Of a stretch of DNA of 64,000 nt, positions 4,976 through 59,180 are shown piece by piece. Source of the DNA: Primulina eburnea (taxonomy: Eukaryota > Streptophyta > Magnoliopsida > Lamiales > Gesneriaceae). The notes below the pieces were generated by a model that saw only the letters and a list, made by a program, of their open reading frames with translations, ran no database searches and was not told the origin of the DNA. Position 1 is the stretch's first letter. Each line of letters opens with the position of its first letter. The DNA is taken from positions 124,001-188,000 of the forward strand of contig NW_027331452.1 in the NCBI RefSeq assembly GCF_022965805.1, given 5' to 3'. A program made the position numbers and the translations under genes.

Positions 4976-6448
4976 CCTGTTTTGGGACCCGGGCTCTAAT
5001 TCTTTTTCTTGGGATTAAATGGATCATTATTCTAAAACGTGGGTCAATTTTTCGCTTTTACATTTAATCAAATGTAATTAAATAAGTAACAATCTTTATT
5101 TCATTTACAACATACAAACATAATATACATGTCTTATTCTGTATGTTCTCAACTAACCAGTATTAAACGACAGTACATAATAAAAGACAACTACTGGTCC
5201 ATCTGCTACGCCCGTGATCTCCACGCTAACACGATCATCTCTGTCTCGACCCAGATCCTGCCCCACCTGTTGTTATGCACACATACAGACATAACAACAG
5301 CCGGAAAACCGCTGAGAACAAATCCCAGTATAAACATGTATACATGCAATAAAACAATCTAAAACATGAAACAAGCTAATATGAATGTCATTCATATATA
5401 ATCATGCAATGCGAGTCTAATCATGTCTAGATGCGACTCGACTAGAACTCTAGGGATCCCGTTGTGAATAAGACGTCACTGACTGTCACCTACCCTATCA
5501 ATCGTGGTGCTGTACGTCTTATTCCTAGATTTCGGCCTGATCTGTATCCACGTCTACAAAGGGGCGGTGATCTTCCCCTGAGCTGAGATATCGCCGAACA
5601 TCTAGTAGTCTGCCTGATCTCCAGACTGCCCTATCTTAATGCATGAATACAAAATCTGTAAACAAGCATAATGCAATGCTACATGATCTGTAAACAAAGC
5701 ATAGCAAGATCTGCATACAAGTTCTATAAACAAATCTATAAACAATCATAATCATATCTAGATATAAACAATAAAACAAGTATGTGATTTTGGTTGGGAA
5801 ACTCAAATGTGATCTCATTTGAGTCGTGATTCCCCAAACAAAACATGTACTATACCTTTCGTCGCACAATCGCTGTCACAGTCGTCCAGCGAATCTGAAA
5901 TGGAAATGTTGATACACAATCTATCAATCTTTAATCTAATCAACACCTATCCAAGTCAATACTTGATTTCGGTACAATTTGACGGCATAACGACGTAATT
6001 CTCGATACCGATCAATCAAATTCTCAACACATATCAACACTATCTCATTCTATATCATTCTCATTCATCATCCACTACAATATTCATCCAAAACACAATA
6101 ATTCTATCCCAACAATTCATAAACCATACTGAAATTCATAGGAAATGCATATGTTATCCTTTCTTTGATCCGTTTACAAATATATCATGCTCAATATGCC
6201 AAGAACACAATATAACTATCATATTCTCATTTTCCAAACATCTGAATTTCGAAACTTGTTGAAATTACATAAAACTTACATCACTTTGTAGCCAATACCG
6301 AGAGGATCTCAAAACCGAAATCGGATTTGAATTTGGATGCTTAAATCTTACAAAAGCAAACTTTGAAAGTGAAAGAGAATTTGGAAGCTTTCCTCCTCTG
6401 AATTCTCGGACCCTTCTGCTGAAACTGAAGCAAGAATCGAGACAATTC

Positions 6449-6456
6449 TATATATA
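6449..6456 (-). promoter_or_regulatory. TATA box of element A LTR
   Basis: The minus strand reads GTATATATAG, about 50 bases downstream of the dyad array. It is the best core-promoter candidate in this LTR. Confidence 0.6.
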
Positions 6457-6502
6457 CTTTGCATGATTTGATACACATGGCTCATCCTTTGAAGCACACG
6501 TC

Positions 6503-6764
6503 TCGCGCATATGCGCGGCATTACTCGCGCATGTGCGCGAGACCTACTGTCTCGGCAGATTTAACACTCGCGCATATGCGCCACTCAACTCGCGCATATG
6601 CGCCCATGTTTCTGGACGCTCCGCGCATATGCGCCACTACTCTCGCGCATATGCGCCAATGCTACTGGAGGTATCGCGCATATGCGCGCATTGTCTCGCG
6701 CATGTGCGCCGAGGCTACTGGAATTTACGCGCATGTGCGCGCATCTCTTCGCGCATGTGCGCTG
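6503..6764 (-). promoter_or_regulatory. U3 dyad array, CGCGCATATGCGCG type, about 10 copies
   Basis: About ten copies of a near-palindrome with arms CGCGC/GCGCG and centre ATAT or ATGT are spaced irregularly over 260 bases. They sit where the other gypsy LTRs carry ACCGCACCCGCGGT arrays, immediately upstream of the TATA box. Some copies have one mismatched outer pair, but the inner GCGC-ATRT-GCGC is nearly invariant. Confidence 0.85.
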
Positions 6765-6913
6765 GAGCTTCGACCTTACACATTATTTTGATTGTCTTTC
6801 ACATCTTTATTGTACATTTTCCTTTCTTTTCTAGTCCAATAAAATACTTCTACAATCATCTTAATTATCAACAAATCCATCTGATTATGATAACTAAATC
6901 TTCGAGCCTTACA

Positions 6914-7401
6914 TCAAGGGTCGGCTCTATCTTGTTCATGTTGAAGTTCACCACATAAGGATCAAATGAGCTAGGCAATGATAACAGCAACACGTCGGTG
7001 GTCAACTTCGAAGGCAAGATCATATCCATTCCAACGAGCTTATCCACGAGCCCAATCAACTTCAGGCCATGCTCATGGACCGAGGCCCCATCTCGCATGC
7101 GCATAGTGATCAGCTCCTTGACGGTAGCATGCCTAAGAGGCCGAGTTTGCTCCCCAAAGAGCTCTTTGAGGTGCTTATGAATGTCAGCAGCATTCTTTGC
7201 ATCCTCAAAACGCCTCTGCAGCTCATCATTCATAGAAGTCAGCATATAACACCTGGATATCAAGTCATGGTCACACCATTCCTTGTAAGCCTGCAATTTC
7301 TCAAGATTGCAGTCAGTCGGAGCCTCAACAGGGGGCGACTCAGTCAGTGTATATGCTACCCTTTCCGAATTCAAGACGATTTTTTTAGGTTTCTTAGCCA
7401 A
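6914..7401 (-). pseudogene. gag: Ty1/copia gag, N-terminal part, cut by element A
   Basis: About 162 codons from ATG at 7401 encode a copia-type gag N-terminus (UBN2 / gag-polypeptide-of-copia family). Family features include CDHDLISRCYMLTSM near the middle, then ELFGEQTRPLRHATVKELITMRM and the stretch near the break that includes LPSSFDPYVVNFNMNK. Such proteins form the particle that packages the element RNA. The frame is open to 6914, where the terminus of gypsy element A interrupts it; the rest of this copia element must lie left of the window. The apparent C-terminal residues past 6914 would be LTR translation and are not gag. The five bases 6914-6918 (tcaag) should be repeated at the far end of A if this is a clean insertion. 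Confidence 0.85.
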
Positions 7402-9231
7402 GTGAGGTAATTAGGTCCAGTTAATATGTGTTTGTCGAGTATTACAGATATCGGATTGCGCATCGAAGACATTTTCAATTTGTACTGAAAAGTAAAACAG
7501 ATAAATGTTGATGACTATTTTAAAATATTTAGTAAGATATGAAGTTTGGACTTTTACTTCATAAATATTTGCTCCCACTGTTTTGACATCTTTCACTACC
7601 CTCTAGTGAAAACGGGAAACTCCTTTCCTCAGTAGTTACGTAAGGTCCAATTAGCGAATTATGATCCCAAATAATATCAGCCAACCACAATTCCTAAAAG
7701 GTAGTTTCCAATTGCATCACAATGCAACCCTCTACGTAAACTTTTGTCTCACGTTTGATTAGGACCCAATAATATGACGTCGTTCATCTTCACGTGTCAA
7801 GCCTTACCCATCGATGTTGAACCTTAATGGACGGTCGCCAAGAGTTCCCTCAATAATATGAGCCGAAGTCATGGGAGTTCCACGTAGTTCACATCACCAT
7901 GTCAAATGGATGTCTCAGCTTTCCGGTACTAAGGGCCCCCCCAATAATATGAGCCGAGCCCCGAGTACGGGTAGCGATTCGTCATGCACCCATTTGTCGA
8001 TGGAAGACATGGAAATTATAAACAAATTTAAAATTCCCCTTTTCGAGCTTGATATTAATTTTGAATCTTATTCAAAATGAGGGTTTTTAATTTTGAAAGG
8101 TCTCATCATTAATTTTATTTTAAAAGCTCGCCATGTTTGATCGTATGTTTGCCGGATTCATGCAACTTTGTTAATTATCATAATAATAACGCACATACTC
8201 ATTATTTATAACATATCATGCATATATTATAAACAGTAAACAAACAAGGATGATCAATCGCCCCAATACTAATGGACCGTGTGAGCTAAACACGGGCCTA
8301 GGTCCAATCCTAGGGTAAATGCGTGGGATGCAAATGCAACTATTACATTAGCTTCCAATATTTACATGTCTTCGATCTTCATAATCATCATGGCCACCAT
8401 CTTCCAATCTTGATCATCCACTATACTAATATTTACAAATAAATATCCATGGCAAATAGGGATACATCTCATGGGGTGGGAACGGGCCATAAACCAAGCC
8501 CACTTTATAAATTGATAATTATTACAATCATTCAATACAAAATATCCTAGCATACACCTAGCAAATTGGGCTTGGACTTTTGATCATCTTTCATGCATAA
8601 TATCACATATCATGCACCATCAATTAATTATCACAATAATTAATTGATCCAATATTATATATCTTGATTCAATCACTAACCGCCACGATTATAAACTAAA
8701 TTAACAAAGTATACAAACAGCTTTGTCTACTTTCAAATTAATTTATTTATAACCGAATTTCTTGTAAATCACCATTTACTAAAAATAATTAAAGTCCAAC
8801 TTAAATTATTTATTTATTGAGAAAAATTTGCAACTTTTGTCATTTTAAACTTAAGGGCCCAAAAACTTATTTTTCACCAAAAACATTTTGGCCCATTTAA
8901 AATCACAAACATGTTAGCCATCCAATGGCCCAACAACTCAAGGCCCATGACACTTTGATATTCCAAAACACTTTTGGAAACCCTAGCCGTCATCGCCGTC
9001 GCCGGAGCTCCGTCGCCGGATTCCGGCCAACTTACCAAAATTTTTTTTTTTTTAAACAAGGGGCTGTTCGGGCAGCCCAGCTGCCCGAAACGGGCAGCCC
9101 CTCGGGCAGCAACATGCTGCCCGAAATCCCCATCTTCAAGCCTTGATTTCGTTGCAAAATTTTGTTCTCATGCGGTTAGAAATCAATCTCAATATAATAT
9201 CTTGTAGTTGCTACACAAAATCGTAACCATA
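7402..9231 (-). other. Untranslated leader of the copia element (about 1.8 kb)
   Basis: The sequence between the primer site and the gag ATG has no supported ORF. It is AT-rich in 8080-8900 and has a repeated CCAATAATATGA-type phrase near 7767, 7850 and 7940. A poly-T run is at about 9040-9053 and two strong hairpins at 9067-9124. The leader is long for a copia element. Whether part of it is a separate older insertion cannot be told from here. Confidence 0.6.
9067..9124 (-). other. Two adjacent perfect hairpins in the copia leader
   Basis: 9067-9089 is a 10-bp perfect inverted repeat, arms TTCGGGCAGC/GCTGCCCGAA round 3 bases. 9102-9124 is a second, arms TCGGGCAGCA/TGCTGCCCGA round 3 bases. 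They share the CGGGCAGC core and lie 100-170 bases downstream of the PBS in the sense direction, where packaging or dimerisation stems of retroelement RNAs often lie. That role is inference. Confidence 0.8.
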
Positions 9232-10125: not shown

Positions 10126-10279
10126 TCTCATAGAAGTCAAACTTCTATTTTTCCTTTCGCCTATAAACTCATTTATAAGCCGTTCAACACATTGAACTAT
10201 TTTCTCTTTTATAGAAGTCACACTTCTAATTTTCCTTACGCTTATAAACTCCTTTATAAGCCGTTCAACACATTGAACT
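10126..10279. repeat. About 81-bp-period duplication in the copia LTR
   Basis: A block of about 72 bases (from ATAGAAGTCA to ACACATTGAACT) is present at 10126-10198 and, with several substitutions, at 10208-10279. Confidence 0.85.
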
Positions 10280-11398
10280 TATTTTACTTCTCAACGGGAT
10301 CTACAAATCTAGTACTTGTGTGGCCCTCAATGGTTCATTGATACAACTAGCCGTGGGTTCACATCTCCATGTGATTCGGACTAAACATGTCCTTATATGA
10401 GCATACCCCAATTGCTCCATTCTTATTTATCAACTCCTTGATAATAAGAACGTCAGAACTCAAGTCTGATAGTACCCAACCAATCATGTTAAACGCCTAG
10501 CAGCATCGCTTACATGATTCCCTAGGTATCAAATGATAGTGCCTGCAAGAACCATTCTATTATGGTTTGCGTACAGTACGGTCCCTTTAACTCATATATC
10601 CCGACCGATTCGACAACCATTGGTTTATCGAGAGTTGTCAATGAATCGATACTATGTGTCATGTCGTAGTTGCATCGATGGTGTAATCTATGAAACCCCT
10701 TTCATAATTACAACCATACTCTGGCCAGAGATTTCAAACTACATATACATGAAACCACATAGGATATCCATACCCGTAGGTAAGCGGTGAATCCCCGACT
10801 ACAATGCATCGACTCCTATATGTTTCGACATAACACCCAACATTGCCACCTGATGACCCCTTGAGAGTCGGTAAACAAGTCAAAGTGAAACGCTAGCACA
10901 TAGAGTCTCAATGTTGTCCCGGTTCATAAGGACTAATGGTGTACAACCATAAACTAGGACTTTTCCACTCGATAAGTGAGAACCACTTGGAAAGTCTTTT
11001 AATGGAGGGTTGTTCAGTGCACTCTACCAGGAGCACCTATCTGCATGCTCGGACATCACAATGTCCCCTACCAATGAAACATGGTACTCACATCGCAGAT
11101 ACTAGTCTCTAACTCGAGCGGCCTATATCCTTCTTAGTGGCGGCTGAATCGACTAGGAACCGTTTAGAATATACAGTATTACAAATATGAGTTTCATGAT
11201 ACTCATCATATGAGCATCTCATATTCTTTCTACTATTTGTATATTCAAGGGCTTTATCTATGCAACTAGCATGGGTATACAGATAAAGATGTGCCAAAAT
11301 AATAATATCAAATATTACTAAAACAAAGATTGCTTATACATTGAGTTTCATTGTGAACACTCGGCCAACACTTGGCTCGACGGGCACCTACTCTAACA

Positions 11399-11804
11399 AC
11401 ACAGTCGCAAAGAACCATCCTTCTTCTTGACAAAAAGAACCGGAGCTCCCCAAGGCGAAGAACTCGGACGAATGAAACCCTTATCTAGAAGATCCTGCAA
11501 CTGCGCCTTCAACTCCTTCATCTCAGCAGGAGCCATCCGGTACGGAGCCTTAGAGCTAGGAACCGTACCAGGAGCTAGATCGATAACGAACTCAACATCT
11601 CTGTCCGGCGGCAAACCCGGAACATCATCCTCAAACACATCAGCAAACTCCCTCACAACATCAATATCATCTATATTCAACTTAACCATACCATCGACAT
11701 CCACAATAGAAGCAAGAAACCCATCGCAACCTCTACACAGCAATCTCTCAGCCTCAAGACAAGAAATAAAAGGAAGGACCAGCGAAGTACCTGAGCTGGC
11801 GAGA
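11399..11804 (-). pseudogene. gag-pol: G2a gag-pol segment: protease/RT linker and start of RT
   Basis: About 135 codons, closely matching the G2b polyprotein, from the region after protease to RT ([43 protein letters not shown]). It is cut at 11399 by the copia LTR and at 11804 by element C. If C plus one TSD copy is removed, the frame joins exactly to the gag-protease part at 20325-21714. The remainder of RT, RNase H and integrase must lie left of the window beyond the copia and A elements. The frame is open in this piece. Confidence 0.92.
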
Positions 11805-13298: not shown

Positions 13299-13485
13299 AC
13301 CGCGGGTGCGGTATGTTCCGGAGCGCGGGTGCGCTATGCTCTCGGCAGCCCCATTTTATTTTCAAAAATCATGACCGCGGGTGCGGTCCCTGCATGCACC
13401 GCGGGTGCGGTATCTGTTCGCAAAATCTTCTAAACCTACTGGCCATGCACCGCGGGTGCGGTGGCTTCTAGGCTGCGGGTGCGGT
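13299..13485 (-). promoter_or_regulatory. U3 dyad array of element C 3' LTR, 6 copies
   Basis: Four perfect ACCGC-ACCC-GCGGT dyads (sense strand), one AGCGC-ACCC-GCGCT and one copy with a mutated arm (at 13472-13485) lie in 187 bases, upstream of TATA. Confidence 0.88.
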
Positions 13486-13624
13486 GTTGCACAATCTCCA
13501 AAACTCAACTTTTCTTGTGTCATTTCATGTCGTGCGTCATTATTCTTCACTTCTGATCTCTATAAACCTTAGTCATAACATCTCTAGTATTTCATAAACA
13601 TAAATCAAAAGTCCGGACATTACA

Positions 13625-18501: not shown

Positions 18502-20324
18502 TGTGGGGACCCGGGCTCTAACTCAATTCTTTTGGGATTTAATTGGATCTTTGTTCGAAAATGTGGGTCAAAAATTTGCTTTTAACATTAATTCAAATGT
18601 ATAGATAAAGCATAACATGTCGTTAACTGAAATAAACAACATAATGTACATACATGTCTGTCTAGTACAACCATACACTAGTGTTCGAATCTCAAATACA
18701 AGTAGTTCAAATCTAAACAGAAACTACTGGTAATCTGCTACTACACCCGGCATCACCACGCTATCAACTCTCTCATCCTCGTCGTGACCCTGATCCTGCC
18801 CCACCTGTTGCCATGCACACATACAGACACGACAACAGCCGGATAACTCCGGTGAGAACATATCCCAGTATAAAACATGGATGCATGCAATGTAAATATC
18901 ATATACAAATGCATAACATAAATCAAGTAACATGAATATAAATCTAAACATGTAGTAGAATACAAATCTGTATTCAACATTCAAATCTTGACTCGACTCT
19001 TTTCTAATCTAGGGATCCCGGTGTGAATAAGACGGTCTGTCACCTACCCAACCACTCGGGGCAACGGTACGTCTTATTCCTAGACTTCGGTCAACTCTGT
19101 ATCGAGGTCTACACATATAGCAAATCTGCTCCTATGCGACGATACACCGAAACGTCTAGTTTTGGCAAATCTGCCAATATCTCCTATCTCAGGGACTCGA
19201 ATATAAATCAATAAACGAAACATTACATAATCAATGTAATAACAATCTAGTATGTGATTTAGGGAAACTCGTATCAAATCTGAATCGAGTTGTGCAATCC
19301 CAAGACCACATGAATTATACCTTTCTTGTTGCACCGTCTGTGTCGAACCGAAACTCGAATACCAAGTAGCCAATACAAATCTGAAATGGCATAGTCAAGG
19401 TGCACTCTATCAATATACGTCTCAAACAACTCAATAAAAATAGCTGAAATCGATTTCAATACAATTTGACGGCATAACGGCGTAATTCTCGGTACCGGTC
19501 AACTCAATCTCAACAAAACAATATATACAATAGCCACAACTCATAATCTTCATAATATACTCATCAAAACACAATATAACATGCTCAATTCTTCCAATCA
19601 ATATCGATATACATGCTGGAAATTCGCAAGGCTCGTATACGGTGTCCGAAAATCGATTTGATAACAAATATACGATGCTCGGTATTCCAAGAACACATAT
19701 TTCTAACAAAATCATAATTTCCTCAATACATAGATTTCGAACCATGCTGAAAATAGTCGAAACTTACATCCTTAGCTAGCTCTTGTTGCAAGGATCATAA
19801 ATCCGGGCTCGGAATAAAAATCGGATCTCTAACTCTTGCACAATCTAAATCACAACTTGAAAGAAGTTTGAAGGATTTCTTGGGAGCTCTCGGTTCTTGC
19901 TATGGAGATCTGAAAAATGAAGACTCAGCAGATTTCTATATATATATATATGTGCCATGTGTCAAGACGAAATTCATAGGTGGCACTTCGCATGCAGCAC
20001 CGCGGGTGCGGTATGTTCCGGAGCGCGGGTGCGCTATGCTCTCGGCAGCCCCATTTTATTTTCAAAAATCATGACCGCGGGTGCGGTCCCTGCATGCACC
20101 GCAGATGCGGTATCTGTTCGCAAAATCTTCTAAACCTACTGGCCATGCACCGCGGGTGCGGTGGCTTCTAGGCCGCGGGTGCGGTGTTGCACAATCTCCA
20201 AAACTCAACTTTTCTTGTGTCATTTCATGTCGTGCGTCATTATTCTTCATTTCTGATCTCTATAAACCTTAGTCATAACATCTCTAGTATTTCATAAACA
20301 TAAATCAAAAGTCCGGACATTACA
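18502..20324 (-). repeat. 5' LTR of element C (1823 bp)
   Basis: Near-identical to 11805-13624; differences are scattered single bases plus small indels (an extra TA in the TATA run, one G). It contains the hairpin 18805-18838, donor-like GTAAGT (19767-19762), acceptor-like CATTTCAG ending at 19381, and the dyad array. Confidence 0.96.
19999..20185 (-). promoter_or_regulatory. U3 dyad array of element C 5' LTR, 6 copies
   Basis: Same six positions as in the 3' LTR. One copy reads ACCGC-AGAT-GCGGT on the plus strand: two substitutions relative to the partner LTR, both in the centre, leaving the arms paired. Confidence 0.88.
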
Positions 20325-22409: not shown

Positions 22410-22993
22410 TGTAATGCCCAGAAATTATGAGAAATGATAAGATAAGATTATAAAGTGTTGCCAGGATGGAAAAATAGAAAAGTCTTGAAAATGCAGCACC
22501 GCACCCGCGGTGCTAGACATCACCACACCCGCGGTGCATGTGCAGAAAATGGAGTGCAAATCCCGTAGCCACACCGCACCCGCGGTATTAGACGGAGCGC
22601 ACCCGCGCTAATGACACCGCACCCGCGGTATTGTAAGCAGCGCACCCGCGGTCTCAGCATTGAGAGAATGGATATGATCACCGCTTGAGCGCACCCGCGC
22701 TCCTTACACTCACCGCACCTGCGGTGCGACGTGCATTATGAAAATGAAGCCACATCTTCAATTATGCATGTAGTATATATATAGGTGTCAAACGAAATTC
22801 CTTTCATTCTGCAGAAAGGAATCGAGAGATTGGGGAGGAACTTGATATTTTTGAGCTTAGAATTTAAGTTACGAAGAATCCGGGTATCAGAATCAAAATC
22901 TGAACGCAGTATCGTGTTCCTCTCGACACGAGCTATACAAGGACGTAAGTCTTGTTACGTTTTGAGATGTTTTGAAAATATGATGTTGCTAGA
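22410..22993 (+). repeat. 5' LTR of D, first part (cut by E)
   Basis: Matches 58429-58853 with about six differences over the shared 425 bases. It holds the dyad array and a TATA run at 22772-22784. A donor-like GACGTAAGT has its GT at 22945; the acceptor-like partner ends at 45329, beyond E. Confidence 0.93.
22498..22725 (+). promoter_or_regulatory. U3 dyad array of D 5' LTR, 8 copies
   Basis: Copies are ACCGC-ACCC-GCGGT (perfect or with one change), two of AGCGC-ACCC-GCGCT and a last ACCGC-ACCT-GCGGT. One copy (AGCGC...GCGGT) has unmatched arms. The TATA run follows about 50 bases later. Confidence 0.88.
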
Positions 22994-23127
22994 TGTAATG
23001 CCCAGAACACCGAGTGATCATTCTGAATGAATAGATGTGCTATGAATAATGGGCATAGAGATAAGAAATAAGAGATGGAGAAGTTTGGCTTGAAATGTAG
23101 AATTATGCAATAATAATTCGAAGCCAT

Positions 23128-23317
23128 ACCGCACCTGCGGTATAAGACAGCACCGCACCCGCGGTCTTAACCATACCGCACCCGCGGTGTAAATACCGTA
23201 GGGGTATCGCACCCGCGGTCCCAACTTTACCGCACCCGCGGTCGATGCATTGTGAAAAATAAAAGAACTGCCGTGGGCAAAGCGCACCCGCGCTCTTTAA
23301 GTCACCGCACCCGCGGT
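23128..23317 (+). promoter_or_regulatory. U3 dyad array of E 5' LTR, 7 copies
   Basis: ACCGC-ACCT/ACCC-GCGGT copies, one TATCGCACCCGCGGT variant and one AGCGC-ACCC-GCGCT. The 3' LTR of E has eight; the missing copy plus spacer is a 49-base deletion with its ends in two dyads. A weak TATA (GATATAGG) lies near 23368. Confidence 0.87.
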
Positions 23318-23537
23318 CATGCGTGGAACTTGGAAAATAAGGACACCTGCTCTTGCCATGCAAAGATGATATAGGTGTCTTCATTTCACCTATTTCAGAT
23401 GCTGGAACTCGAGGGAAGCTCAGGAAAAGGGAACAAGGCTTCTTTCTTATTAAAATTGATTTTGTGCAAGATTTAGCCATTCGATTTTCATTCCGAGTTG
23501 AGATTCTTGCTCCTCGCGTCAAGGGCTTCAAGGTGAC

Positions 23538-23914
23538 GTAAGTTTCTTTCAATTCAAGCATGATTTGGAATATGGTGATTGGGGAAACTTTAATATGTTC
23601 ATAGATATGTGTTCTGGTGATGATTTTGAACATATACTCGAAAACGGATCGAAGAAATAGCATCGTATGCATTTATTAGGAATTCCAGCATGTTTAGAAC
23701 TAAATTATGCAGATTTTGGATAGTATCATATGACTATGATGATGATTATGGGTTGAGAATTAAGCTGTATTACTATATGCTGTGAGTTGGACTGATCGGT
23801 ATTGATAAATCATGTCGTTATGCCGTCAGATTGTTCCAAGATCACGTGTAGAATTAGATAGGTGTTGAATTGAATAGGGAATTGATATTGTATGTATCTA
23901 CATTTCCATTTCAG
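23538..23914 (+). other. Putative LTR leader intron (E), GTAAGT...CATTTCAG
   Basis: A consensus 5' splice site (GAC|GTAAGT) lies downstream of the TATA region, and CCATTTCAG lies 377 bases on. The same pair, 357-387 bases apart, occurs in A, C, F, H and the E 3' LTR. G2b has it 727 bases apart. Splicing is inference; no RNA evidence is available here. Confidence 0.4.
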
Positions 23915-24287
23915 ATTCGTATTGTCAACCAAGACAGCAACTGTGCGACAAGAAAGGCATAGTACATGTTTTGTTTGGGGAATCATGACTCAAATGAGAT
24001 CACATTTGAGTTTCCCAACAAAAATCACATACTTGTTTTATTGTTTATACCTTGATATGATTATGATTGTTATAGATTTGTTTATAGAACTTATATGCAG
24101 ATCTTGCTATGTTTTGTTTACAGATCATGTAGCATTGCATTATGCTTGTTTACAGATTTTGTATTCATGCATTAAGATAGGGCAGTCTGGAGATCAGGCA
24201 GACTACTAGATGTTCGGCGATATCACAGCTTAGGGGAAGATCACCGCCCCTATTGTAGACGCGGATACAGATCAGGCCGAAATCTAG

Positions 24288-24346
24288 GAATAAGACGTAC
24301 AGCACCACGATTGGTAGGGTAGGTGACAGACAGTGACGTCTTATTC
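24288..24346 (+). other. Long-range inverted repeat in E LTR
   Basis: GAATAAGACGT at 24288-24298 is exactly complementary to ACGTCTTATTC at 24336-24346. The intervening bases differ between subfamilies while the arms are kept in A, C, F and H. Confidence 0.8.
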
Positions 24347-24510
24347 ACAACGGGATCCCTAGAGTTTTAGTCGAGTCGCTCTAGACATGATTAGACTCGC
24401 ATTGCATGATTATATATGAATGACATTCATATTAGCATGTTTCATGTTTTAGATTGTTTTATTGCATGTATACATGTTTATACTGGGATTTGTTCTCACC
24501 GGTTTTCCGG

Positions 24511-24544
24511 CTGTTGTTATGTCTGTATGTGTGCATAACAACAG
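24511..24544 (+). other. Conserved LTR hairpin (E form)
   Basis: CTGTTGTTATG and CATAACAACAG form a perfect 11-bp stem with a 12-base loop TCTGTATGTGTG. C, F and H have the same loop but changed, still pairable arms (CTGTTGTCGTG with CATGGCAACAG). Confidence 0.82.
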
Positions 24545-24724
24545 GTGGGGCAGGATCTGGGTCACGACAGAGATGAGCGATGGACATAGCGTGGAGATCA
24601 CGGGCGTAGCAGATGGACCAGTAGTTGTCTTTTATTATGTACTGTCTTTTAATACTGGTCAGTTGAGTACATACAGAATAAGACATGTATATTATGTTTG
24701 TATGTTGTAAAATAAATAAAGAAC

Positions 24725-25578
24725 GAAGTGTTTGCATTGACCGAAGAGCAAGCACAAGATGCACCAGATGATGTGATAGCAGGTAACTGCTCTCTTTATG
24801 GTTATCCTGCTTATATCTTGATAGATACAGGTGCATCGCATACATTCATATTAGAACGATTTGCATTATTGCATTCATTACCTGTTGAGTCCTTGCTAGA
24901 TGTTGTATCTATTAATTCTCCGTTGGTAAGTGGATTGATATCTGTAACTACGGTTAGACATTGCATTCTACAGTTTGAGGGGCATGAGATTGACCTAGAT
25001 TGTATAGTGTTGGGTCTAGCTGATTTTGATTGTATAGTCGGTATTGACATGCTAACAAAGTACAGAGCCACCATAGATTGTTTCCACAAGATTGTCAGAT
25101 TCAGACCCGAGATGACAGACGAGTGGAAATTCTACGAGAAGGGTTCCAGATCTCGGATTCCCTTGATTTCGGCTCTTATGATGAACAGATTGTTACAGAA
25201 AGGAGCGGATGGTTTCTTTGTTTATGCTGTAGATATGCAGAAGACGAGTCCGACATTGGCAGATCTGCCAGTAGTGCGAGAATTTCCAGATATTTTTCCA
25301 GATGAAATCCCAGGATTACCTCCGGTTCGAGAGGTAGATTTCAGTATTGATCTTACACCAGGTACCGTCCCTATTTCGAGAGCTCCGTATAGGATGGCAC
25401 CCATCGAACTCAAAGAACTGAAAGCACAGTTAGAAGATCTTCTAGCCAAGGGATATATCAGACCTAGTGTATCTCCTTGGGGCGCTCCGGTGCTGTTTGT
25501 GCGGAAGAAAGATGGTTCGATGCGATTGTGTATAGACTACCGTCAACTGAATAAGGCAACGATCAAGAATAAATATCC
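24725..25578 (+). pseudogene. gag-pol: Element E gag-pol, part 1: end of gag, protease, start of RT
   Basis: The open frame begins at the deletion junction with [14 protein letters not shown] and runs through protease ([24 protein letters not shown]), the linker and RT up to [10 protein letters not shown]. There E sequence stops and LINE-derived sequence begins. Gag, including both zinc knuckles, is deleted. No ATG context marks this as a real translation start. It is closest to element A in sequence. Confidence 0.93.
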
Positions 25579-30197: not shown

Positions 30198-30357
30198 NNN
30201 NNNNNNNNNNNNNNNNNNNNNNNNNNNNNNNNNNNNNNNNNNNNNNNNNNNNNNNNNNNNNNNNNNNNNNNNNNNNNNNNNNNNNNNNNNNNNNNNNNNN
30301 NNNNNNNNNNNNNNNNNNNNNNNNNNNNNNNNNNNNNNNNNNNNNNNNNNNNNNNNN
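30198..30357. other. Assembly gap (160 N)
   Basis: A run of N. Peptides spanning it are meaningless. Confidence 1.
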
Positions 30358-33549: not shown

Positions 33550-35321
33550 TGTGGGGACCCGGGCTCTAACTCAATTCTTTTGGGATTTAATTGGATCTTT
33601 GTTCGAAAATGTGGGTCAAAAATTTGCTTTTAACATTAATTCTAATGTATAGATAAAGCATAACATATCGTTAACTGAAATAAACAACATAATGTACATG
33701 CATATCTGTCTAGTACAATCATACACTAGTGTTCGAATCTCAAATACAAACATAAGTAGTACAAGTTTCATAAGGAAACACTAGTAATCTGCAATGCCCG
33801 AGATCTCCACGCTATCATCATCTCTCATCTAGCTCGTGACCCCGATCCTGCCCCACCTGTTGCCATGCACACATACAGACACGACAACAGCCGGATAACT
33901 CCGGTGAGAACATATCCCAGTATAAAACATGGATGCATGCAATGTAATAAATCATGTACAATGCATAACATAAATCAAGTAACATGAATATACATCTAAA
34001 CATGTAGTAGAATACAAATCTGTATTCTACATTCAAATCTTGACTCAACTCTCTTGACTCGACTCTTTTCTAATCTAGGGATCCCGGTGTGAATAAGACG
34101 GTCTGTTACCTACCCAACCACTCGGGGCAACGGTACGTCTTATTCCTAGACTTCGGTCAACTCTGTATCGAGGGTCTACACATATAGCAAATCTGCTCCT
34201 ATGCGTCGATACACCGAAACGTCTAGTTTTGGCAAGTCTGCCAATCTCTCCTATCTCAGGACTCAAATATAAATCAATAAACAAGGCATTACATAATCAA
34301 TGTAATAACAATCTAGTATGTGATTTAGGGAAACTCGTATCAAATCTGAATCGAGTTGTGCAATCCCGTGACCACATGAATTATACCTTTCTTGTCGCAC
34401 AGTCTGTGTCGAACCGAAATCTCGAATACCAAGTAGTCAATACAAATCTGAAATGGCATAAACAATGTGCACTTCAGTCATATACATCTCAAGCAAATCA
34501 ATATACAACGCTAACATCGGTTTCAATGCAATTCGACGGCATAACGGCGTAATTCTTTTATACCGGTAACTCAAGAACATCATACTCAATCACAATCAAC
34601 TCATCATCTCATCTAACATCTATATACATGCTGTAATCTGTATATTCTCAATCCAACACATGCTGGAAAATCGAACGTATAGCATACGGCGTCTGAAATT
34701 CGATCCGTTTACGTTTCTACGATGCTTAGTATATCAAGAACACATAATCTATGTCAAATCTGAATTCTTCCAACACATAATTTTCGAAACATGCTGGAAA
34801 TGAACAATACTTACATCCTCTTGTAGCTTTGGTTGAGAGGAGTACCAATCTGAACTCGAATTCAAGTTTGGATGGCTAAATCTTGCAAAAGATAAATTGT
34901 GAGATGGAAGAAGCCTTGGACTCTCTTCTGAATTCTCCCTCGGTGCTTACTACTGAAAATGGAAGGAAATGAAGCCACATACCCTTGTATTGCATGGCAA
35001 GGAACAAGTGTCTTTATTTTTCATTTGACACGCACGACCGCGGGTGCGGTACACTAGCAGCGCGGGTGCGCTGTGCTCACGGCAGCCCTTGCATTTTCTG
35101 AAATTCTTGGACCGCGGGTGCGGTGATGTTATTACCGCGGGTGCGGTGTCTGTTCGCACAATTTTACAAATTTTCTGTCAATGCACCGCGGGTGCGGTCC
35201 TTCCTGTACCGCGGGTGCGGTGTGGCTTCGGCCCTGCTTTACGAATTCTGATCTAAATATCATGTATTCTCGTCGTTTCAAGTCTCACATCAATAACAAC
35301 CGATAATTCTCGAGCCTTACA
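33550..35321 (-). repeat. 3' LTR of F (1772 bp)
   Basis: On the minus strand it starts TGTAAGGCTCGAGAAT and ends GGGTCCCCACA. It contains the hairpin 33857-33890 and the inverted repeat 34091-34100 with 34136-34145. Confidence 0.97.
35037..35221 (-). promoter_or_regulatory. U3 dyad array of F 3' LTR, 6 copies
   Basis: Five perfect ACCGC-ACCC-GCGGT dyads (sense) and one perfect AGCGC-ACCC-GCGCT. I see no clear TATA box downstream in this subfamily. Confidence 0.88.
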
Positions 35322-40200: not shown

Positions 40201-41972
40201 TGTGGGGACCCGGGCTCTAACTCAATTCTTTTGGGATTTAATTGGATCTTTGTTCGAAAATGTGGGTCAAAAATTTGCTTTAAACATTAATTCTAATGTA
40301 TAGATAAAGCATAACATATCGTTAACTGAAATAAACAACATAATGTACATGCATATCTGTCTAGTACAATCATACACTAGTGTTCGAATCTCAAATACAA
40401 ACATAAGTAGTACAAGTTTCATAAGGAAACACTAGTAATCTGCAATGCCCGAGATCTCCACGCTATCATCATCTCTCATCTAGCTCGTGACCCCGATCCT
40501 GCCCCACCTGTTGCCATGCACACATACAGACACGACAACAGCCAGATAACTCCGGTGAGAACATATCCCAGTATAAAACATGGATGCATGCAATGTAATA
40601 AATCATGTACAATGCATAACATAAATCAAGTAACATGAATATACATCTAAACATGTAGTAGAATACAAATCTGTATTCTACATTCAAATCTTGACTCAAC
40701 TCTCTTGACTCGACTCTTTTCTAATCTAGGGATCCCGGTGTGAATAAGACGGTCTGTTACCTACCCAACCACTCGGGGCAACGGTACGTCTTATTCCTAG
40801 ACTTCGGTCAACTCTGTATCGAGGGTCTACACATATAGCAAATCTGCTCCTATGCGTTGATACACCGAAACGTCTAGTTTTGGCAAGTCTGCCAATCTCT
40901 CCTATCTCAGGACTCAAATATAAATCAATAAACAAGGCATTACATAATCAATGTAATAACAATCTAGTATGTGATTTAGGGAAACTCGTATCAAATCTGA
41001 ATCGAGTTGTGCAATCCCGTGACCACATGAATTATACCTTTCTTGTCGCACAGTCTGTGTCGAACCGAAATCTCGAATACCAAGTAGTCAATACAAATCT
41101 GAAATGGCATAAACAATGTGCACTTCAGTCATATACATCTCAAGCAAATCAATATACAACGCTAACATCGGTTTCAATGCAATTCGACGGCATACCGGCG
41201 GAATTCTTTTATACCGGTAACTCAAGAACATCATACTCAATCACAATCAACTCATCATCTCATCTAACATCTATATACATGCTGTAATCTGTATATTCTC
41301 AATCCAACACATGCTGGAAAATCGAACGTATAGCATACGGCGTCTGAAATTCGATCCGTTTACGTTTCTACGATGCTTAGTATATCAAGAACACATAATC
41401 TATGTCAAATCTGAATTCTTCCAACACATAATTTTCGAAACATGCTGGAAATGAACAATACTTACATCCTCTTGTAGCTTTGGTTGAGAGGAGTACCAAT
41501 CTGAACTCGAATTCAAGTTTGGATGGCTAAATCTTGCAAAAGATAAATTGTGAGATGGAAGAAGCCTTGGACTCTCTTCTGAATTCTCCCTCGGTGCTTA
41601 CTACTGAAAATGGAAGGAAATGAAGCCACATACCCTTGTATTGCATGGCAAGGAACAAGTGTCTTTATTTTTCATTTGACACGCACGACCGCGGGTGCGG
41701 TACACTAGCAGCGCGGGTGCGCTGTGCTCACGGCAGCCCTTGCATTTTCTGAAATTCTTGGACCGCGGGTGCGGTGATGTTATTACCGCGGGTGCGGTGT
41801 CTGTTCGCACAATTTTACAAATTTTCTGTCAATGCACCGCGGGTGCGGTCCTTCCTGTACCGCGGGTGCGGTGTGGCTTCGGCCCTGCTTTACAAATTCT
41901 GATCTAAATATCATGTATTCTCGTCGTTTCAAGTCTCACATCAATAACAACCGATAATTCTCGAGCCTTACA
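40201..41972 (-). repeat. 5' LTR of F (1772 bp)
   Basis: Same length as the 3' LTR with about six substitutions. Sense order: dyad array, donor-like GTAAGT (41465-41460), acceptor-like CATTTCAG ending at 41099, inverted repeat, hairpin (40541-40508), inner end. Confidence 0.97.
41688..41872 (-). promoter_or_regulatory. U3 dyad array of F 5' LTR, 6 copies
   Basis: Identical to the array of the 3' LTR. Confidence 0.88.
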
Positions 41973-43005: not shown

Positions 43006-44897
43006 TGTAATGCCCAGAACACCGAGTGATCATTCTGAATGAATAGATGTGCTATGAATAATGGGCATAGAGATAAGAAATAAGAGATGGAGAAGTTTGG
43101 CTTGAAATGTAGAATTATGCAATAATAATTCGAAGCCATACCGCACCTGCGGTATAAGACAGCACCGCACCCGCGGTGTAAAGAGGGAAAATAAGATTTG
43201 GTGCGAAGCAAGACCGCACCCGCGGTCTTAACCATACCGCACCCGCGGTGTAAATACCGTAGGGGTATCGCACCCGCGGTCCCAACTTTACCGCACCCGC
43301 GGTCGATGCATTGTGAAAAATAAAAGAACTGCCGTGGGCACAGCGCACCCGCGCTCCTTAAGTCACCGCACCCGCGGTCATGCGTGGAACTTGGAAAATA
43401 AGGACACCTGCTCTTGCCATGCAAAGATGATATAGGTGTCTTCATTTCACCTATTTCAGATGCTGGAACTCGAGGGAAGCTCAGGAAAAGGGAACAAGGC
43501 TTCTTTCTTATTAAAATTGATTTTGTGCAAGATTTAGCCATTCGATTTTCATTCCGAGTTGAGATTCTTGATCCTCGCGTCAAAAGCTTCAAGGTGACGT
43601 AAGTTTCTTTCAATTCAAGCATGATTTGGAATATGGTGATTGGGGAAACTTTAATATGTTCATAGATATGTGTTCTGGTGATGATTTTGAACATATACTC
43701 GAAAACGGATCGAAGAAATAGCATCGTATGCATTTATTAGGAATTCCAGCATGTTTAGAACTAAATTATGTAGATTTTGGATAGTATCATATGACTATGA
43801 TGATGATTATGGGTTGAGAATTAAGATGTATTACTATATGCTGTGAGTTGGACTGATCGGTATTGAGAAATCATGTCGTTATGCCGTCAGATTGTGCCAA
43901 GATCACGTGTAGAATTAGATAGGTGTTGAATTGAATAGGGAATTGATATTGTATGTATCTACATTTCCATTTCAGATTCGTATTGTCAACCGTGACAGCA
44001 ACTGTGCGACAAGAAAGGTATAGTACATGTTTTGTTTGGGGAATCATGACTCAAATGAGATCACATTTGAGTTTCCCAACCAAAATCACATACTTGTTTT
44101 ATTGTTTATACCTTGATATGATTATGATTGTTATAGATTTGTTTATAGAACTTATATGCAGATCTTGCTATGCTTTGTTTACAGATCATGTAGCATTGCA
44201 TTATGCTTGTTTACAGATTTTGTATTCATGCATTAAGATAGGGCAGTCTGGAGATCAGGCAGACTACTAGATGTTCGGCGATATCACAGCTTAGGGGAAG
44301 ATCACCGCCCCTATTGTAGACGTGGATACAGATCAGGCCGAAATCTAGGAATAAGACGTACAGCACCACGATTGGTAGGGTAGGTGACAGACAGTGACGT
44401 CTTATTCACAACGGGATCCCTAGAGTTTTAGTCGAGTCGCATCTAGACATGATTAGACTCGCATTGCATGATTATATATGAATGACATTCATATTAGCAT
44501 GTTTCATGTTTTAGATTGTTTTATTGCATGTATACATGTTTATACTGGATTTGTTCTCACCGGTTTTCCGGCTGTTGTTATGTCTGTATGTGTGCATAAC
44601 AACAGGTGGGGCAGGATCTGGGTCACGACAGAGATGAGCGATGGACATAGCGTGGAGATCACGGGCGTAGCAGATGGACCAGTAGTTGTCTTTTATTATG
44701 TACTGTCTTTTAATACTGGTCAGTTGAGTACATACAGAATAAGACATGTATATTATGTTTGTATGTTGTAAAATAAATAAAGAACTGATGTTGTTTAGTT
44801 ACATTTGAGTTAATGTAAAAAGCGAAAATTTGACCCACTTTTTATATTATTGATCCATTTAATCCCAAGATAAAGAATTAGAGCCCGGGTCCCCACA
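43006..44897 (+). repeat. 3' LTR of E, complete (1892 bp)
   Basis: Starts TGTAATGCCCAGAACACC and ends GGGTCCCCACA. It contains the dyad array, donor-like GTAAGT with GT at 43599, acceptor-like CATTTCAG ending at 43975, and the hairpin 44572-44605. Confidence 0.96.
43140..43378 (+). promoter_or_regulatory. U3 dyad array of E 3' LTR, 8 copies
   Basis: Has one more dyad and a 35-base spacer than the 5' LTR array of the same element. Confidence 0.88.
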
Positions 44898-50188: not shown

Positions 50189-51808
50189 TGTAATAGCCGA
50201 GCCCGGTGTACGGTACGGTTTAAGCTTTATTGTGTTAATTGGGTTTTGTGATTAGATGATTATAGTTGTGTTTTGGGCTATAGTATTATTGGTTATTATT
50301 TATTTGAGGTGTTAGTTGGTGTTGATTGTTCGTTTCAGCGTTTCGAATCGATTTTTAGTTGTTTTTTTGTTACTGTTCATTGCCGTGAGTAGAGTGCACC
50401 CGCGCTCTTAGATGAGTGCCCCCGCGGTGTACTATTCATGATTTTGGATTTGGAGGGCCGTGGCATCACCGCACCCGCGGCAGTGCAAGGACCGCACCCG
50501 CGGTGAGACCGCACCCGCGGTAATTGTAGCACCGCACCCGCGGTGTTCGTGCATGGGATTTATTTTGGTTGCCGTGAGCTTAGCGCACCCGCGGTGCTTG
50601 TGTGACCGCACCCGCGGTGTAAGTATGGGCGAGATATTTAGTACCTTTTTGATTGAGTTGACTTCATTCCATACCTTATCTTATCTTCTTTTCGAGATTT
50701 TCTCTCTTTTGGCAAGGGTTTTCATCCATTTTTTTAGCTTCCTACCTTTGATTCTTGGAGTTATTTGGATTTCCGACTTGAGATCATCGTTCTCCGTGGT
50801 ATAAGGAAGCTTAGGTAAGTTTTTGGTGCGATTCTAATGAGGTTTCGAGTTAAGGGTTATTTTGGATTTGATGTTTTGATGGTTCTATGGATTATTTAGC
50901 ATGGACTCTTGGATTTAGTCTTGATATTGGTGTTATTTATGGATTATTGTTGTAGGTGGTGTACCAAGAGTATAGTTGGAGGTGTTCTATTGGTTTGTAA
51001 GTGGAATTTCATCCTTTTTGCTCACATGATATTATATGTATTGTGTTTTAAAGGTTTCAAAGTGTTATTCCCTTCCATTGATCCATTGTTATGTATTGAT
51101 TTCATTGATTATCTATTGGAGGCATTGATGTCTCACTATTGTTAAAAAGGGAATACAAGAGATATTATGAGATTGCGAAACGACGGCCTTAAATGCTATT
51201 GAGAATTCAAATGTTTTATTGGATTGATTAATCATAGCCATAGCATTGCATGCAATTAGATGATCATCGACCATAGGCTTTTATCCCCTCACAGTTATCG
51301 ATTTATATCGATGGGATATTGGCAACCACAGTCACAGATACTATTGATATCAATCCAACCATAGAAAAGAGAAATACCATCGTTTTGCTATCTATTGCCA
51401 TTGCTATTGCTACAGTTATTGCTACGTTATTCATGTTTCAGAGTCGATGGTATTTATGATTTAAAAGCCATGTTTTACAGTGTATACTATGTATCATTGC
51501 TATGTAAGAGTTCCACTTGCTGAGATTTATTCTCATTTCAGTTATTTCGTGTGATGCAGATAAGAGCGACGGACCGGGACGTTGACTGTGGATGGGGGTC
51601 ATATGCATACGAAGATTGGAAGGATGATTATTTTGTACCATTTTGTAACATGATCACACTAATGATATTTTGTATTTTGTTATGTCATTGGAATGATCAT
51701 GTTGTTATTTTGTAAACACTTTTATAAAATGTATTTTGAAACTCCTTCCGTTTGAAAGAAAATTTTAAATTCCGCTGTATTTTAATTGTATCGGGTCAGG
51801 GTGTCACA
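50189..51808 (+). repeat. 5' LTR of G2b (1620 bp)
   Basis: Starts TGTAATAGCCGAGCCCGG and ends GGGTCAGGGTGTCACA. A strong donor-like TTAG|GTAAGT has its GT at 50815. CTCATTTCAG ends at 51541, a possible 727-base leader intron. It shares no obvious sequence with the LTRs of the other gypsy family except the dyads and these splice-like sites. Confidence 0.96.
50393..50618 (+). promoter_or_regulatory. U3 dyad array of G2b 5' LTR, 8 copies
   Basis: Three or four perfect ACCGC-ACCC-GCGGT copies plus variants (AGTGC...GCGCT, AGTGCCCCCGCGGT, a copy ending GCGGC, AGCGC...GCGGT). They have the same orientation relative to transcription as in the other family. Confidence 0.87.
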
Positions 51809-56601: not shown

Positions 56602-56827
56602 AGTGCACCCGCGCTCTTAGATGAGTGCCCCCGCGGTGTACTATTCATGATTTTGGATTTGGAGGGCCGTGGCATCACCGCACCCGCGGCAGTGCAAGGA
56701 CCGCACCCGCGGTGAGACCGCACCCGCGGTAATTGTAGCACCGCACCCGCGGTGTTCGTGCATGGGATTTATTTTGGTTGCCGTGAGCTTAGCGCACCCG
56801 CGGTGCTTGTGTGACCGCACCCGCGGT
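56602..56827 (+). promoter_or_regulatory. U3 dyad array of G2b 3' LTR, 8 copies
   Basis: Same copies and spacing as the 5' LTR array. Confidence 0.87.
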
Positions 56828-57750
56828 GTAAGTATGGGCGAGATATTTAGTACCTTTTTGATTGAGTTGACTTCATTCCATACCTTATCTTATCTTCTTT
56901 TCGAGATTTTCTCTCTTTTGGCAAGGGTTTTCATCCATTTCTTTAGCTTCCTACCTTTGATTCTTGGAGTTATTTGGATTTCCGACTTGAGATCATCGTT
57001 CTCCGTGGTATAAGGAAGCTTAGGTAAGTTTTTGGTGCGATTCTAATGAGGTTTCGAGTTAAGGGTTATTTTGGATTTGATGTTTTGATGGTTCTATGGA
57101 TTATTTAGCATGGACTCTTGGATTTAGTCTTGATATTGGTGTTATTTATGGATTATTGTTGTAGGTGGTGTACCAAGAGTATAGTTGGAGGTGTTCTATT
57201 GGTTTGTAAGTGGAATTTCATCCTTTTTGCTCACATGATATTATATGTATTGTGTTTTAAAGGTTTCAAAGTGTTATTCCCTTCCATTGATCCATTGTTA
57301 TGTATTGATTTCATTGATTATCTATTGGAGGCATTGATGTCTCACTATTGTTAAAAAGGGAATACAAGAGATATTATGAGATTGCGAAACGACGGCCTTA
57401 AATGCTATTGAGAATTCAAATGTTTTATTGGATTGATTAATCATAGCCATAGCATTGCATGCAATTAGATGATCATCGACCATAGGCTTTTATCCCCTCA
57501 CAGTTATCGATTTATATCGATGGGATATTGGCAACCACAGTCACAGATACTATTGATATCAATCCAACCATAGAAAAGAGAAATACCATCGTTTTGCTAT
57601 CTATTGCCATTGCTATTGCTACAGTTATTGCTACGTTATTCATGTTTCAGAGTCGATGGTATTTATGATTTAAAAGCCATGTTTTACAGTGTATACTATG
57701 TATCATTGCTATGTAAGAGTTCCACTTGCTGAGATTTATTCTCATTTCAG

Positions 57751-58272
57751 TTATTTCGTGTGATGCAGATAAGAGCGACGGACCGGGACGTTGACTGTGG
57801 ATGGGGGTCATATGCATACGAAGATTGGAAGGATGATTATTTTGTACCATTTTGTAACATGATCACACTAATGATATTTTGTATTTTGTTATGTCATTGG
57901 AATGATCATGTTGTTATTTTGTAAACACTTTTATAAAATGTATTTTGAAACTCCTTCCGTTTGAAAGAAAATTTTTAAATTCCGCTGTATTTTAATTGTA
58001 TCGGGTCAGGGTTATTTCGTGTGATGCAGATAAGAGCGACGGACCGGGACGTTGACTGTGGATGGGGGTCATATGCATACGAAGATTGGAAGGATGATTA
58101 TTTTGTACCATTTTGTAACATGATCACACTAATGATATTTTGTATTTTGTTATGTCATTGGAATGATCATGTTGTTATTTTGTAAACACTTTTATAAAAT
58201 GTATTTTGAAACTCCTTCCGTTTGAAAGAAAATTTTTAAATTCCGCTGTATTTTAATTGTATCGGGTCAGGG
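57751..58272 (+). repeat. 261-bp tandem duplication at the end of the G2b 3' LTR
   Basis: The unit from TTATTTCGTGTGATGCAG to TCGGGTCAGGG occurs at 57751-58011 and 58012-58272, apparently without differences. The 5' LTR has one copy. Confidence 0.95.
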
Positions 58273-58284
58273 TGTCACAATTAT

Positions 58285-58428: not shown

Positions 58429-58853
58429 TGTAATGCCCAGAAATTATGAGAAATGATAAGATAAGATTATAAAGTGTTGCCAGGATGGAAAAATAGAAAA
58501 GTCTTGAAAATGCAGCACCGAACCCGCGGTGCTAGACATCACCGCACCCGCGGTGCATGTGCAGAAAATGGAGTGCAAATCCCGTAGCCACACCGCACCC
58601 GCGGTATTAGACGGAGCGCACCCGCGCTAATGACACCGCACCCGCGGTATTGTAAGCAGCGCACCCGCGGTCTCAGCTTTGAGAGAATGGATATGATCAC
58701 CGCTTGAGCGCACCCGCGCTCCTTACACTCACCGCACCTGCGGTGCGACGTGCACTATGAAAATGAAGCCACGTCTTCAATTATGCATGTAGTATATATA
58801 TAGGTGTCAAACGAAATTCCTTTCATTCTGCATAAAGGAATCGAGAGATTGGG
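58429..58853 (+). repeat. 3' LTR of D, first 425 bases (cut by H)
   Basis: Matches 22410-22834 and is interrupted at 58854 by the H LTR. The bases ttggg (58849-58853) should recur at the far end of H. Confidence 0.93.
58517..58744 (+). promoter_or_regulatory. U3 dyad array of D 3' LTR, 8 copies
   Basis: Same layout as 22498-22725. In copy 1 the 3' LTR has a mismatch (ACCGA) where the 5' LTR is perfect; in copy 2 the 5' LTR has the mismatch (ACCAC). Confidence 0.87.
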
Positions 58854-58953
58854 TGTAAGGCTCGAGAATTGTCAATTGGCATTGATGTGAGACTTGAAAC
58901 CATGAGAATGCATGACATATAGAGTGGAATTTTTGAAGCATGGCCGAAGCCAC

Positions 58954-59180
58954 ACCGCACCCGCGGTGTTAGAGATACAGCACCCGCGGTGCATTGAGAG
59001 GAAATTGAGGGAAATGTGCGAACAGACACCGCACCCGCGGTGCTAGCACGACCGCACCCGCGGTGTGAGACCGCACCCGCGGTCATGTAAGGACCGCACC
59101 CGCGGTCTAGGTGCTGCAATGTTAGATTAATTCACCGTGAGCACAGCGCACCCGCGCTGTTAGTGTACCGCACCCGCGGT
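58954..59180 (+). promoter_or_regulatory. U3 dyad array of H, 8 copies
   Basis: Six perfect ACCGC-ACCC-GCGGT, one perfect AGCGC-ACCC-GCGCT and one degenerate ACAGCACCCGCGGT copy, followed about 35 bases later by TATAAA. Confidence 0.89.

Follow-up and report, generated by a model that had tools for sequence, protein, structure and literature searches.

Twelve Ty3/gypsy LTRs in the 64-kb window (the whole stretch of 64,000 nucleotides that was analyzed) each carry an array of six to ten short dyads in the U3 region, within the opening few hundred bases of the LTR. The array reported at 22498..22725 on the forward strand is real, and comprises eight dyads in four pairs, in the U3 of an LTR starting at 22410 (family H). 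The number of dyads per U3 given in the original prediction, six to ten, is borne out in all twelve LTRs. The other arrays on the forward strand are those of the F 5′ LTR (23128..23317; seven dyads, with 49 bp absent between dyads 2 and 3; LTR starting at 22994), the F 3′ LTR (43140..43378; eight dyads in four pairs; LTR starting at 43006), the G2b 5′ LTR (50393..50618; eight dyads in four pairs, the first of which is degenerate; LTR starting at ~50189), the G2b 3′ LTR (56602..56827; eight dyads; LTR starting at ~56401), the E LTR (58517..58744; eight dyads; starting at 58429 and cut at 58853 by the D2 LTR) and the D2 LTR (58954..59180; eight dyads in four pairs; starting at 58854). On the reverse strand lie four arrays of six dyads in three pairs, those of the C 3′ LTR (13299..13485; starting at 13624), the C 5′ LTR (19999..20185; starting at 20324), the D 3′ LTR (35037..35221; starting at ~35321) and the D 5′ LTR (41688..41872; starting at ~41972), together with that of the A 5′ LTR at ~4984-6913 (6505..6762; ten dyads of the GCGCAYATGCGC type in five pairs).

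There are 11 open reading frames of at least 250 amino acids in the window that appear gag- or pol-like by eye, and three of these were scanned for domains. The gag-pol sequences of D and G2b match Pfam families of the Ty3/gypsy type, among them Ty3_capsid, and give a weak match to a chromodomain that falls just under the curated cut-off (E = 2.7e-5 and 2.1e-4); this domain content assigns both elements to Ty3/gypsy. Among the 120 of 186 matches listed, a 294-residue piece of the D gag finds its nearest counterparts in Primulina, Henckelia and Dorcoceras proteins, the best of those listed having 80% identity over 90%, so that the host probably belongs to the Gesneriaceae.

The families are related to differing degrees, as seen by nucleotide self-comparison. 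C, D and D2 are mutually ~90-91% identical, LTR parts included. A and F share 93% identity in two internal segments, 90% in another segment covering the LTR start, and 85% in R-U5, while A or F aligned with C, D or D2 gives 76-83%. G2b is the most distant, with 65-69% identity to the other families in the compared internal segments. The LTRs H (22410-22994) and E (58429-58854) belong to one family, with 98.6% identity over 425 bp. Since the families are related, the arrays correspond to few independent events. The LTRs with arrays start with TGTAA, or (AT)TGTAA in G2b, and at the element ends inspected (C 3′, F 3′, E and A 3′) the stretch AGAGGGGGAGAAA precedes the LTR. The H LTR is abruptly followed by the F LTR, and the E LTR by the D2 LTR; we infer that both junctions arose by nested insertion.

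Some further features of the window may be recorded here. Copia-type gag-like sequence, recognized by eye at 6914-7400, is apparently interrupted by the insertion of A. A short GGGCAGC/GCTGCCC inverted-repeat cluster at 9060-9125 lies outside any LTR identified, and an 81-bp tandem repeat of 1.9 copies at 10130-10285 is unrelated to the dyads. A run of 160 N at 30198-30357, inside the F element region, is probably an assembly gap. The G2b 3′ LTR region has at its downstream end a perfect 261-bp tandem duplication (57750-58273), of which a related single copy (92%) is found at 51541-51801.

We searched the window for the common dyad ACCGCACCCGCGGT, allowing up to two mismatches. This gave 75 sites, compared with an average of 0.05 over 100 dinucleotide shuffles of the window, and all 75 fall within 11 LTR U3 arrays at six to eight sites each; the G2b LTRs hold two additional weaker dyads per LTR beyond these. 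The general form of the dyad is SCGCRNNYGCGS, consisting of two inverted SCGCR half-sites that flank a 2-bp center. Exact matches to this form are confined to the arrays. Matches with one mismatch are found outside them at 11495, 27611 and 47505, and adjoining the D arrays at 35032 and 41683, so that beyond these few sites no comparable density of dyads occurs in the non-LTR DNA of the window. A scan of the window for 9-mers repeated at least four times per 400 bp returned the arrays and two AT-rich stretches only. Taken with the dyad matches, this indicates that the arrays are a feature of LTR U3 regions within the window.

Representing each family by one LTR gives seven arrays, with 44 dyads of the common (ACCC) type and the ten of A. 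Of the 44, 26 are exactly ACCGCACCCGCGGT and six are AGCGCACCCGCGCT, in which both arms are changed; the core sequences are CCGC-GCGG or GCGC-GCGC. As originally proposed, the orientation of the dyads relative to transcription is constant, and this holds for the ACCC-type dyads. The 12-bp dyad cores have a mean identity of 88-96% within an array, and the 8-nt flanks one of 25-38%, compared with 24-29% for the mean of letter-shuffled flanks. Five of the 14 sets of flanks are modestly more alike than their shuffles (p < 0.05), mostly on the 5′ side, which indicates that the spacers are not fully random and agrees with a weak box ahead of the pairs.

The copies of each LTR provide a second comparison, for which we used four 5′/3′ LTR pairs together with the H/E pair. 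Differences between copies were found at 5 of 490 dyad positions (three of them in C), at 8 of 1486 positions in the remainder of the U3 and at 36 of 5381 elsewhere. A lower rate of change in the dyads than in their surroundings was not detected between these copies (p = 0.33). The dyads are constant across families while the spacers drift, yet they are not measurably protected between LTR copies, and the constancy across families is best read as the product of purifying selection in active lineages.

The original prediction described the spacing of the dyads as irregular, and this is incorrect. We took the dyads of the seven representative LTRs in transcription order and assigned them to pairs ourselves as first with second, third with fourth, and so on. 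The distance within a pair is 22, 23 or 24 bp in all 27 pairs, giving a grammar of dyad, 8-10 bp, dyad. Distances between pairs (n = 20) are 17-20, 31, 43 or 49-53 bp. When equal numbers of sites were placed at random over the same span, all within-pair distances of an array fell inside a 3-bp range in only 0.015-0.7% of 20,000 trials per array. The second LTRs of C, D and G2b (their 3′ copies) and the E LTR are spaced just as their partners are. We considered helical phasing, but the 22-24 bp class does not fit multiples of 10.5 bp.

The F 5′ LTR (22994-24785) lies outside this spacing count. Compared with the F 3′ LTR (43006-44785) it lacks 49 bp between the second and third dyads, which breaks the pairing, leaves seven dyads and places an intact dyad at the deletion junction. 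The gap resembles the outcome of slippage or recombination involving identical dyads, and the dyads thus appear to act as slippage points; it illustrates how arrays may gain or lose units. Might the arrays then have no function, reverse-transcriptase slippage simply having amplified a repeat that contained a chance palindrome? The tandem structure would be expected on this basis, the dyad-to-dyad deletion in F shows that slippage or recombination does occur, and one array, that of A, has a tandem period that looks recently amplified. Against this, neutral amplification would leave the spacers as alike as the dyads, and it is the spacers alone that are near chance. Moreover, pair spacing is kept in all seven representative arrays, and the dyads are common to a distant family. 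We consider an origin of this kind very unlikely.

Where do the arrays lie relative to the promoter? They were expected just upstream of the TATA region, and this is so for part of the set. Four of the seven families (A, C, H/E and D2) have the pattern TATA(A/T)A 45-61 bp downstream of where the last dyad begins; in H it falls within 22774..22783 on the forward strand, 61 bp beyond the first base of the final dyad core. By a simple pattern search it is absent from the corresponding place in F, D and G2b.

This placement also bears on a possible role in chromatin, in which the array would bind protein as an insulator, as an anti-silencing element or as a sensor of methylation, the CpG-rich dyads being read by a methylation-sensitive protein. 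Clustered sites with roles of this type are found elsewhere, in the Su(Hw) sites of Drosophila gypsy and in the VANDAL/VANC system. Most CpGs of the seven arrays are indeed in the dyads (159 of 180). However, a position directly upstream of TATA is that expected of an ordinary enhancer, and the 11 longer open reading frames of the window look gag- or pol-like by eye. A chromatin role is in our view very unlikely.

We examined what the arrays share beyond the dyads by comparing G2b with the other families. G2b had been thought to show no similarity to them apart from the dyads, and for R-U5 this stands: the G2b R-U5 has no match to the other families at E = 1e-3. It does not hold for the U3. 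There, 159 columns (a block of roughly 150 bp) align between G2b and D2 at 79%, about half of this being dyads, and the block includes a TGCCGTGAGC-like box. The G2b spacer that precedes the last pair and contains the box aligns better than shuffles with four of the five families compared (C, D, D2 and F; p ≤ 0.006, 500 shuffles), while in the comparison with H there was no excess over shuffles (p = 0.29). For the short spacers within pairs, three of ten comparisons involving G2b gave p < 0.05. The box just before the last pair of the G2b 5′ array is GCCGTGAGCT (50571..50580, forward strand). The 8-mer GCCGTGAG occurs six times in the window, at 50382, 50571, 56591 and 56780 on the forward strand and at 41734 and 35083 on the reverse, every copy lying just upstream of a dyad pair in a G2b or D LTR; near variants occupy the same place in C, F and D2. 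Either G2b has retained an old U3 module in an LTR that otherwise diverged, or U3 sequence has been exchanged; both would produce the likeness seen.

The array of family A had been described as a variant. It is present, and has the same paired layout, but with a different dyad in every copy: all ten dyads of the A 5′ LTR are GCGCAYATGCGC instead of CCGCACCCGCGG, with the pairs at exactly 22 bp. The start of the A 3′ LTR, which is cut by the edge of the window, matches that of the 5′ LTR at 98.9% over 88 bases, showing that the array belongs to A's own LTR. From the last dyad to beyond the TATA sequence, A is homologous to D2 (z = 7.8) and H (z = 6.8, 200 shuffles), less clearly so to C, F and D (z = 3.7-4.0), and has no homology to G2b (z = −1.0). 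The sequence before the array is weakly alignable to other families (z = 1.1-4.0). The frame of the U3 is thus largely unchanged, indicating that the dyads were replaced together. The array has a 53-bp tandem period with 3.7 copies and 82% matches, which suggests that one changed module was amplified.

On this basis A may have undergone a wholesale change of dyad, and with it of binding specificity, in one step by amplification of a single altered module, perhaps to engage a different host factor or to escape a repressor. As this reading rests on one complete U3 we put it forward tentatively, as a doubtful but real possibility. Alternatively, the A array might have been imported from a family not seen here. 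If the swap is true, it would represent a modular switch of specificity in a gypsy enhancer, in which the paired spacing is held constant.

One candidate originally suggested was that the dyads are CGCG boxes for CAMTA factors, which bind calmodulin, and the elements would then be stress-responsive. This fits the common type, 41 of whose 44 dyads match VCGCGB, and work on tomato Rider considers a U3 CGCG motif as a stress element linked to calmodulin (PMC6762207). In A, by contrast, VCGCGB is matched by only four of the ten dyads, and a 6-bp box accounts neither for conservation over 12-14 bp nor for the pairing. CAMTA factors are thus very unlikely candidates, at about the same level as the chromatin role. 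Two other common codes were rejected. An E-box (CANNTG) is present in ten of ten A dyads and in three of the 44 others. Z-DNA was set aside on inspection, as the A dyad in its ATAT form alternates purine and pyrimidine and ACCGCACCCGCGGT does not.

A different class of explanation is that the dyads function in RNA. As hairpins at the 3′ end of the element RNA, where U3 is transcribed from the 3′ LTR, they could act as a signal for processing, packaging or stability, or form a structure for small-RNA silencing as proposed for maize Sireviruses. Each dyad type folds alone into a short stem closed by a loop of 4 nt (−6.7 kcal/mol), but any short palindrome folds. In stability the F 3′ array exceeds its shuffles (z = −4.0). 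In a scan made without a shuffle control, segments of 110 nt below −40 kcal/mol, the cut-off used in the maize study, lie almost only in the arrays: 26 of 185 in A, 13 of 151 in G2b, 13 of 168 in D2 (12 of them in the array), 8 of 179 in F and 2 of 172 in C. Five of the seven arrays therefore pass this cut-off; the other two have no segment below it, with 0 of 167 in D and 0 of 48 in H, where the minimum is −39.7. An excess of small RNA is reported at Sirevirus palindromes in the accessible part of the maize work (PMC10760457).

If the stem were selected for pairing it should extend, vary and compensate more than it does. Complementarity beyond the 14-mer is at chance, the first outside pair being complementary in 17 of 44 dyads with 15.5 expected. 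Within the 44 common-type dyads, stem pairs 3:12, 4:11 and 5:10 are near-fixed (in 41, 43 and 44, respectively). Only pair 2:13 changes on both sides, positions 2 and 13 being CG in 33, GC in seven, GG in three and TG in one, and the remaining four of the five stem pairs have no double change. The joint change at positions 2 and 13 would fit a stem as well, but the G⋅G mismatch there is present in both G2b LTRs and in both H and E. In A, pair 2:13 is G-C in all ten dyads, and pair 1:14, A-T in the common type, is C-G in four and unpaired in six. Changes that G⋅U pairing would tolerate are equally frequent in the antisense and sense (three each), and the A pair tested folds best from dyad to dyad rather than as two hairpins. 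Complementarity that ends at the dyad edges, with covariation in one of five stem pairs, favors sites in DNA over hairpins in RNA, and the dyad is more like a recognition sequence of fixed length. The hairpin reading, one of the two options in the original prediction, is weakened by these sequence comparisons and we regard it as unlikely.

We also looked for relatives of the arrays in viral contigs. A scan for the dyad pattern matched at least 120 stretches there, and among 120 of these, 14 had at least three dyads within 400 bp. None was accepted as a relative: the 14 were simple repeats of 8-12 bp, had the multiple-of-three spacing of coding repeats, or held loose sites. The three loci with 24-bp pair spacing (L007, L021 and L061) have a GC content of 0.64 and proline/alanine-codon-like repeats, and are without a full dyad. 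A piece of the reverse transcriptase found no relative among the viral contigs.

How do these arrays compare with known systems? The closest are the palindromic repeated motifs in the LTRs of Sireviruses, which are Ty1/copia elements. According to the parts of that study available (PMC2829016), these are CpG-rich, number at least eight per element, lie shortly upstream of the TATA box and have a CGG-CCG core in all but one case. The palindromes differ between elements, near-identical ones being found in distant elements; the comparison there was of Ty1/copia elements, and the function of the motifs was left open. The arrays described here are similar in being clusters of short CpG-rich palindromes upstream of TATA (with the TATA pattern in four of seven families), in that motifs are highly similar (in Sireviruses, within most elements) while their flanks diverge, and in that near-identical motifs occur in distant elements and other palindromes in other elements. 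Taken by LTR rather than by element, the unit of the Sirevirus criterion, seven of our twelve have at least eight copies and five have six or seven. They differ in occurring in Ty3/gypsy elements, and in having a CGC-GCG core (CCGC-GCGG or GCGC-GCGC) where the core reported for Sireviruses is CGG-CCG. The fixed 22-24 bp pairs also set them apart, as none is reported for the Sirevirus motifs in the text seen (PMC2829016). Many Sireviruses are described as having extra copies near ENV, whereas in this window no exact copies occur outside U3. The arrays thus resemble the Sirevirus motifs in anatomy and are not members of that group: the class of element and the core differ, and the paired spacing is extra.

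In maize, the text available indicates that hairpin-like regions are concentrated in Copia LTRs, and that Ty3 elements are generally without an obvious peak (PMC10760457); an excess of small RNA at Sirevirus palindromes is cited within the maize work (PMC10760457; PMC5311732). Like the palindromic CACCGGACNNNGTCCGGTG/miRNA-like regions of maize Copia LTRs, the present arrays are palindrome clusters within the cis-regulatory portion of the LTR, with predicted RNA structure (PMC10760457). Unlike what is described for maize Ty3, they lie in Ty3 elements, two of the seven representative LTRs having no segment under the cut-off.

Repeated or clustered sites for host factors are known in the U3 of plant LTR retrotransposons, such as the BII box of Tnt1 and the 13-bp repeats of Tto1, and the binding factors are known for some repeats of this type. 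Rider of tomato is a Ty1/copia element. Its U3 promoter is reported likewise to have a CGCG motif in a CpG-island-like stretch, and U3 variants keep or lose that motif (PMC6762207); there is a single CGCG box there and an array of paired dyads here. The heat element in the U3 of ONSEN provides a further example of host-factor binding sites, according to the portion available (PMC12786077). Compared with the present elements, Tnt1, Tto1 and ONSEN are described as Ty1/copia, with other motifs in fewer copies. In barley, STARR-seq is reported to identify LTR/Gypsy DNA as a frequent source of enhancers in general, in the part of the paper seen (PMC12016029). No published description of these arrays was found among the titles and beginnings of abstracts listed, in literature mostly outside subscription, and a search with six dyad strings gave no plant paper by title. 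What we describe is a Ty3/gypsy variant of palindrome arrays, with a strict pair grammar and with a dyad that has been swapped naturally between closely related families.

The most probable interpretation, and the better supported of the two originally offered, is that the arrays form the enhancer part of the LTR promoter, with the dyads bound by a dimeric host factor; we hold it with moderate confidence, on the strength of sequence comparison. The same dyads are kept in the distant family G2b, and the paired layout persists in A with another dyad. The dyad sequence, the position and pairing of the dyads, their conservation against drifting spacers and the lack of stem extension are direct observations, from which we infer protein binding, the host origin and dimeric form of the protein, activation and cooperativity. 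The module would consist of two dyads in tandem at 22-24 bp; many modules have a CCGTGAGC- or CCAGTAGC-like box ahead of the pair. Most likely each dyad would be bound by a nuclear protein of the host that is dimeric and sequence-specific. A module would accommodate two dimers, whose binding would be cooperative and whose spacing would be fixed at about two turns of the helix. The combined effect of three to five modules would then be to drive transcription from the adjacent downstream promoter. Repeats would be gained or lost when reverse transcription slips from one dyad to another nearly identical to it, and the dyads and their pairing would be preserved by selection acting on active elements. 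A symmetric dimer would need neither the constant orientation of the dyads nor their asymmetric center (ACCC); tandem duplication could give rise to the orientation.

Copia-type Sirevirus arrays have been described already, and maize Ty3 elements are reportedly, in general, without a comparable peak of structure in the text available; the present work places arrays in Ty3/gypsy elements. Short defined sequences are now available for pulling down the host factor. The swap of dyads between close families lets one ask whether retrotransposons change their regulator, and, by scattering such arrays, gypsy LTRs could also seed these genomes with ready-made enhancers.
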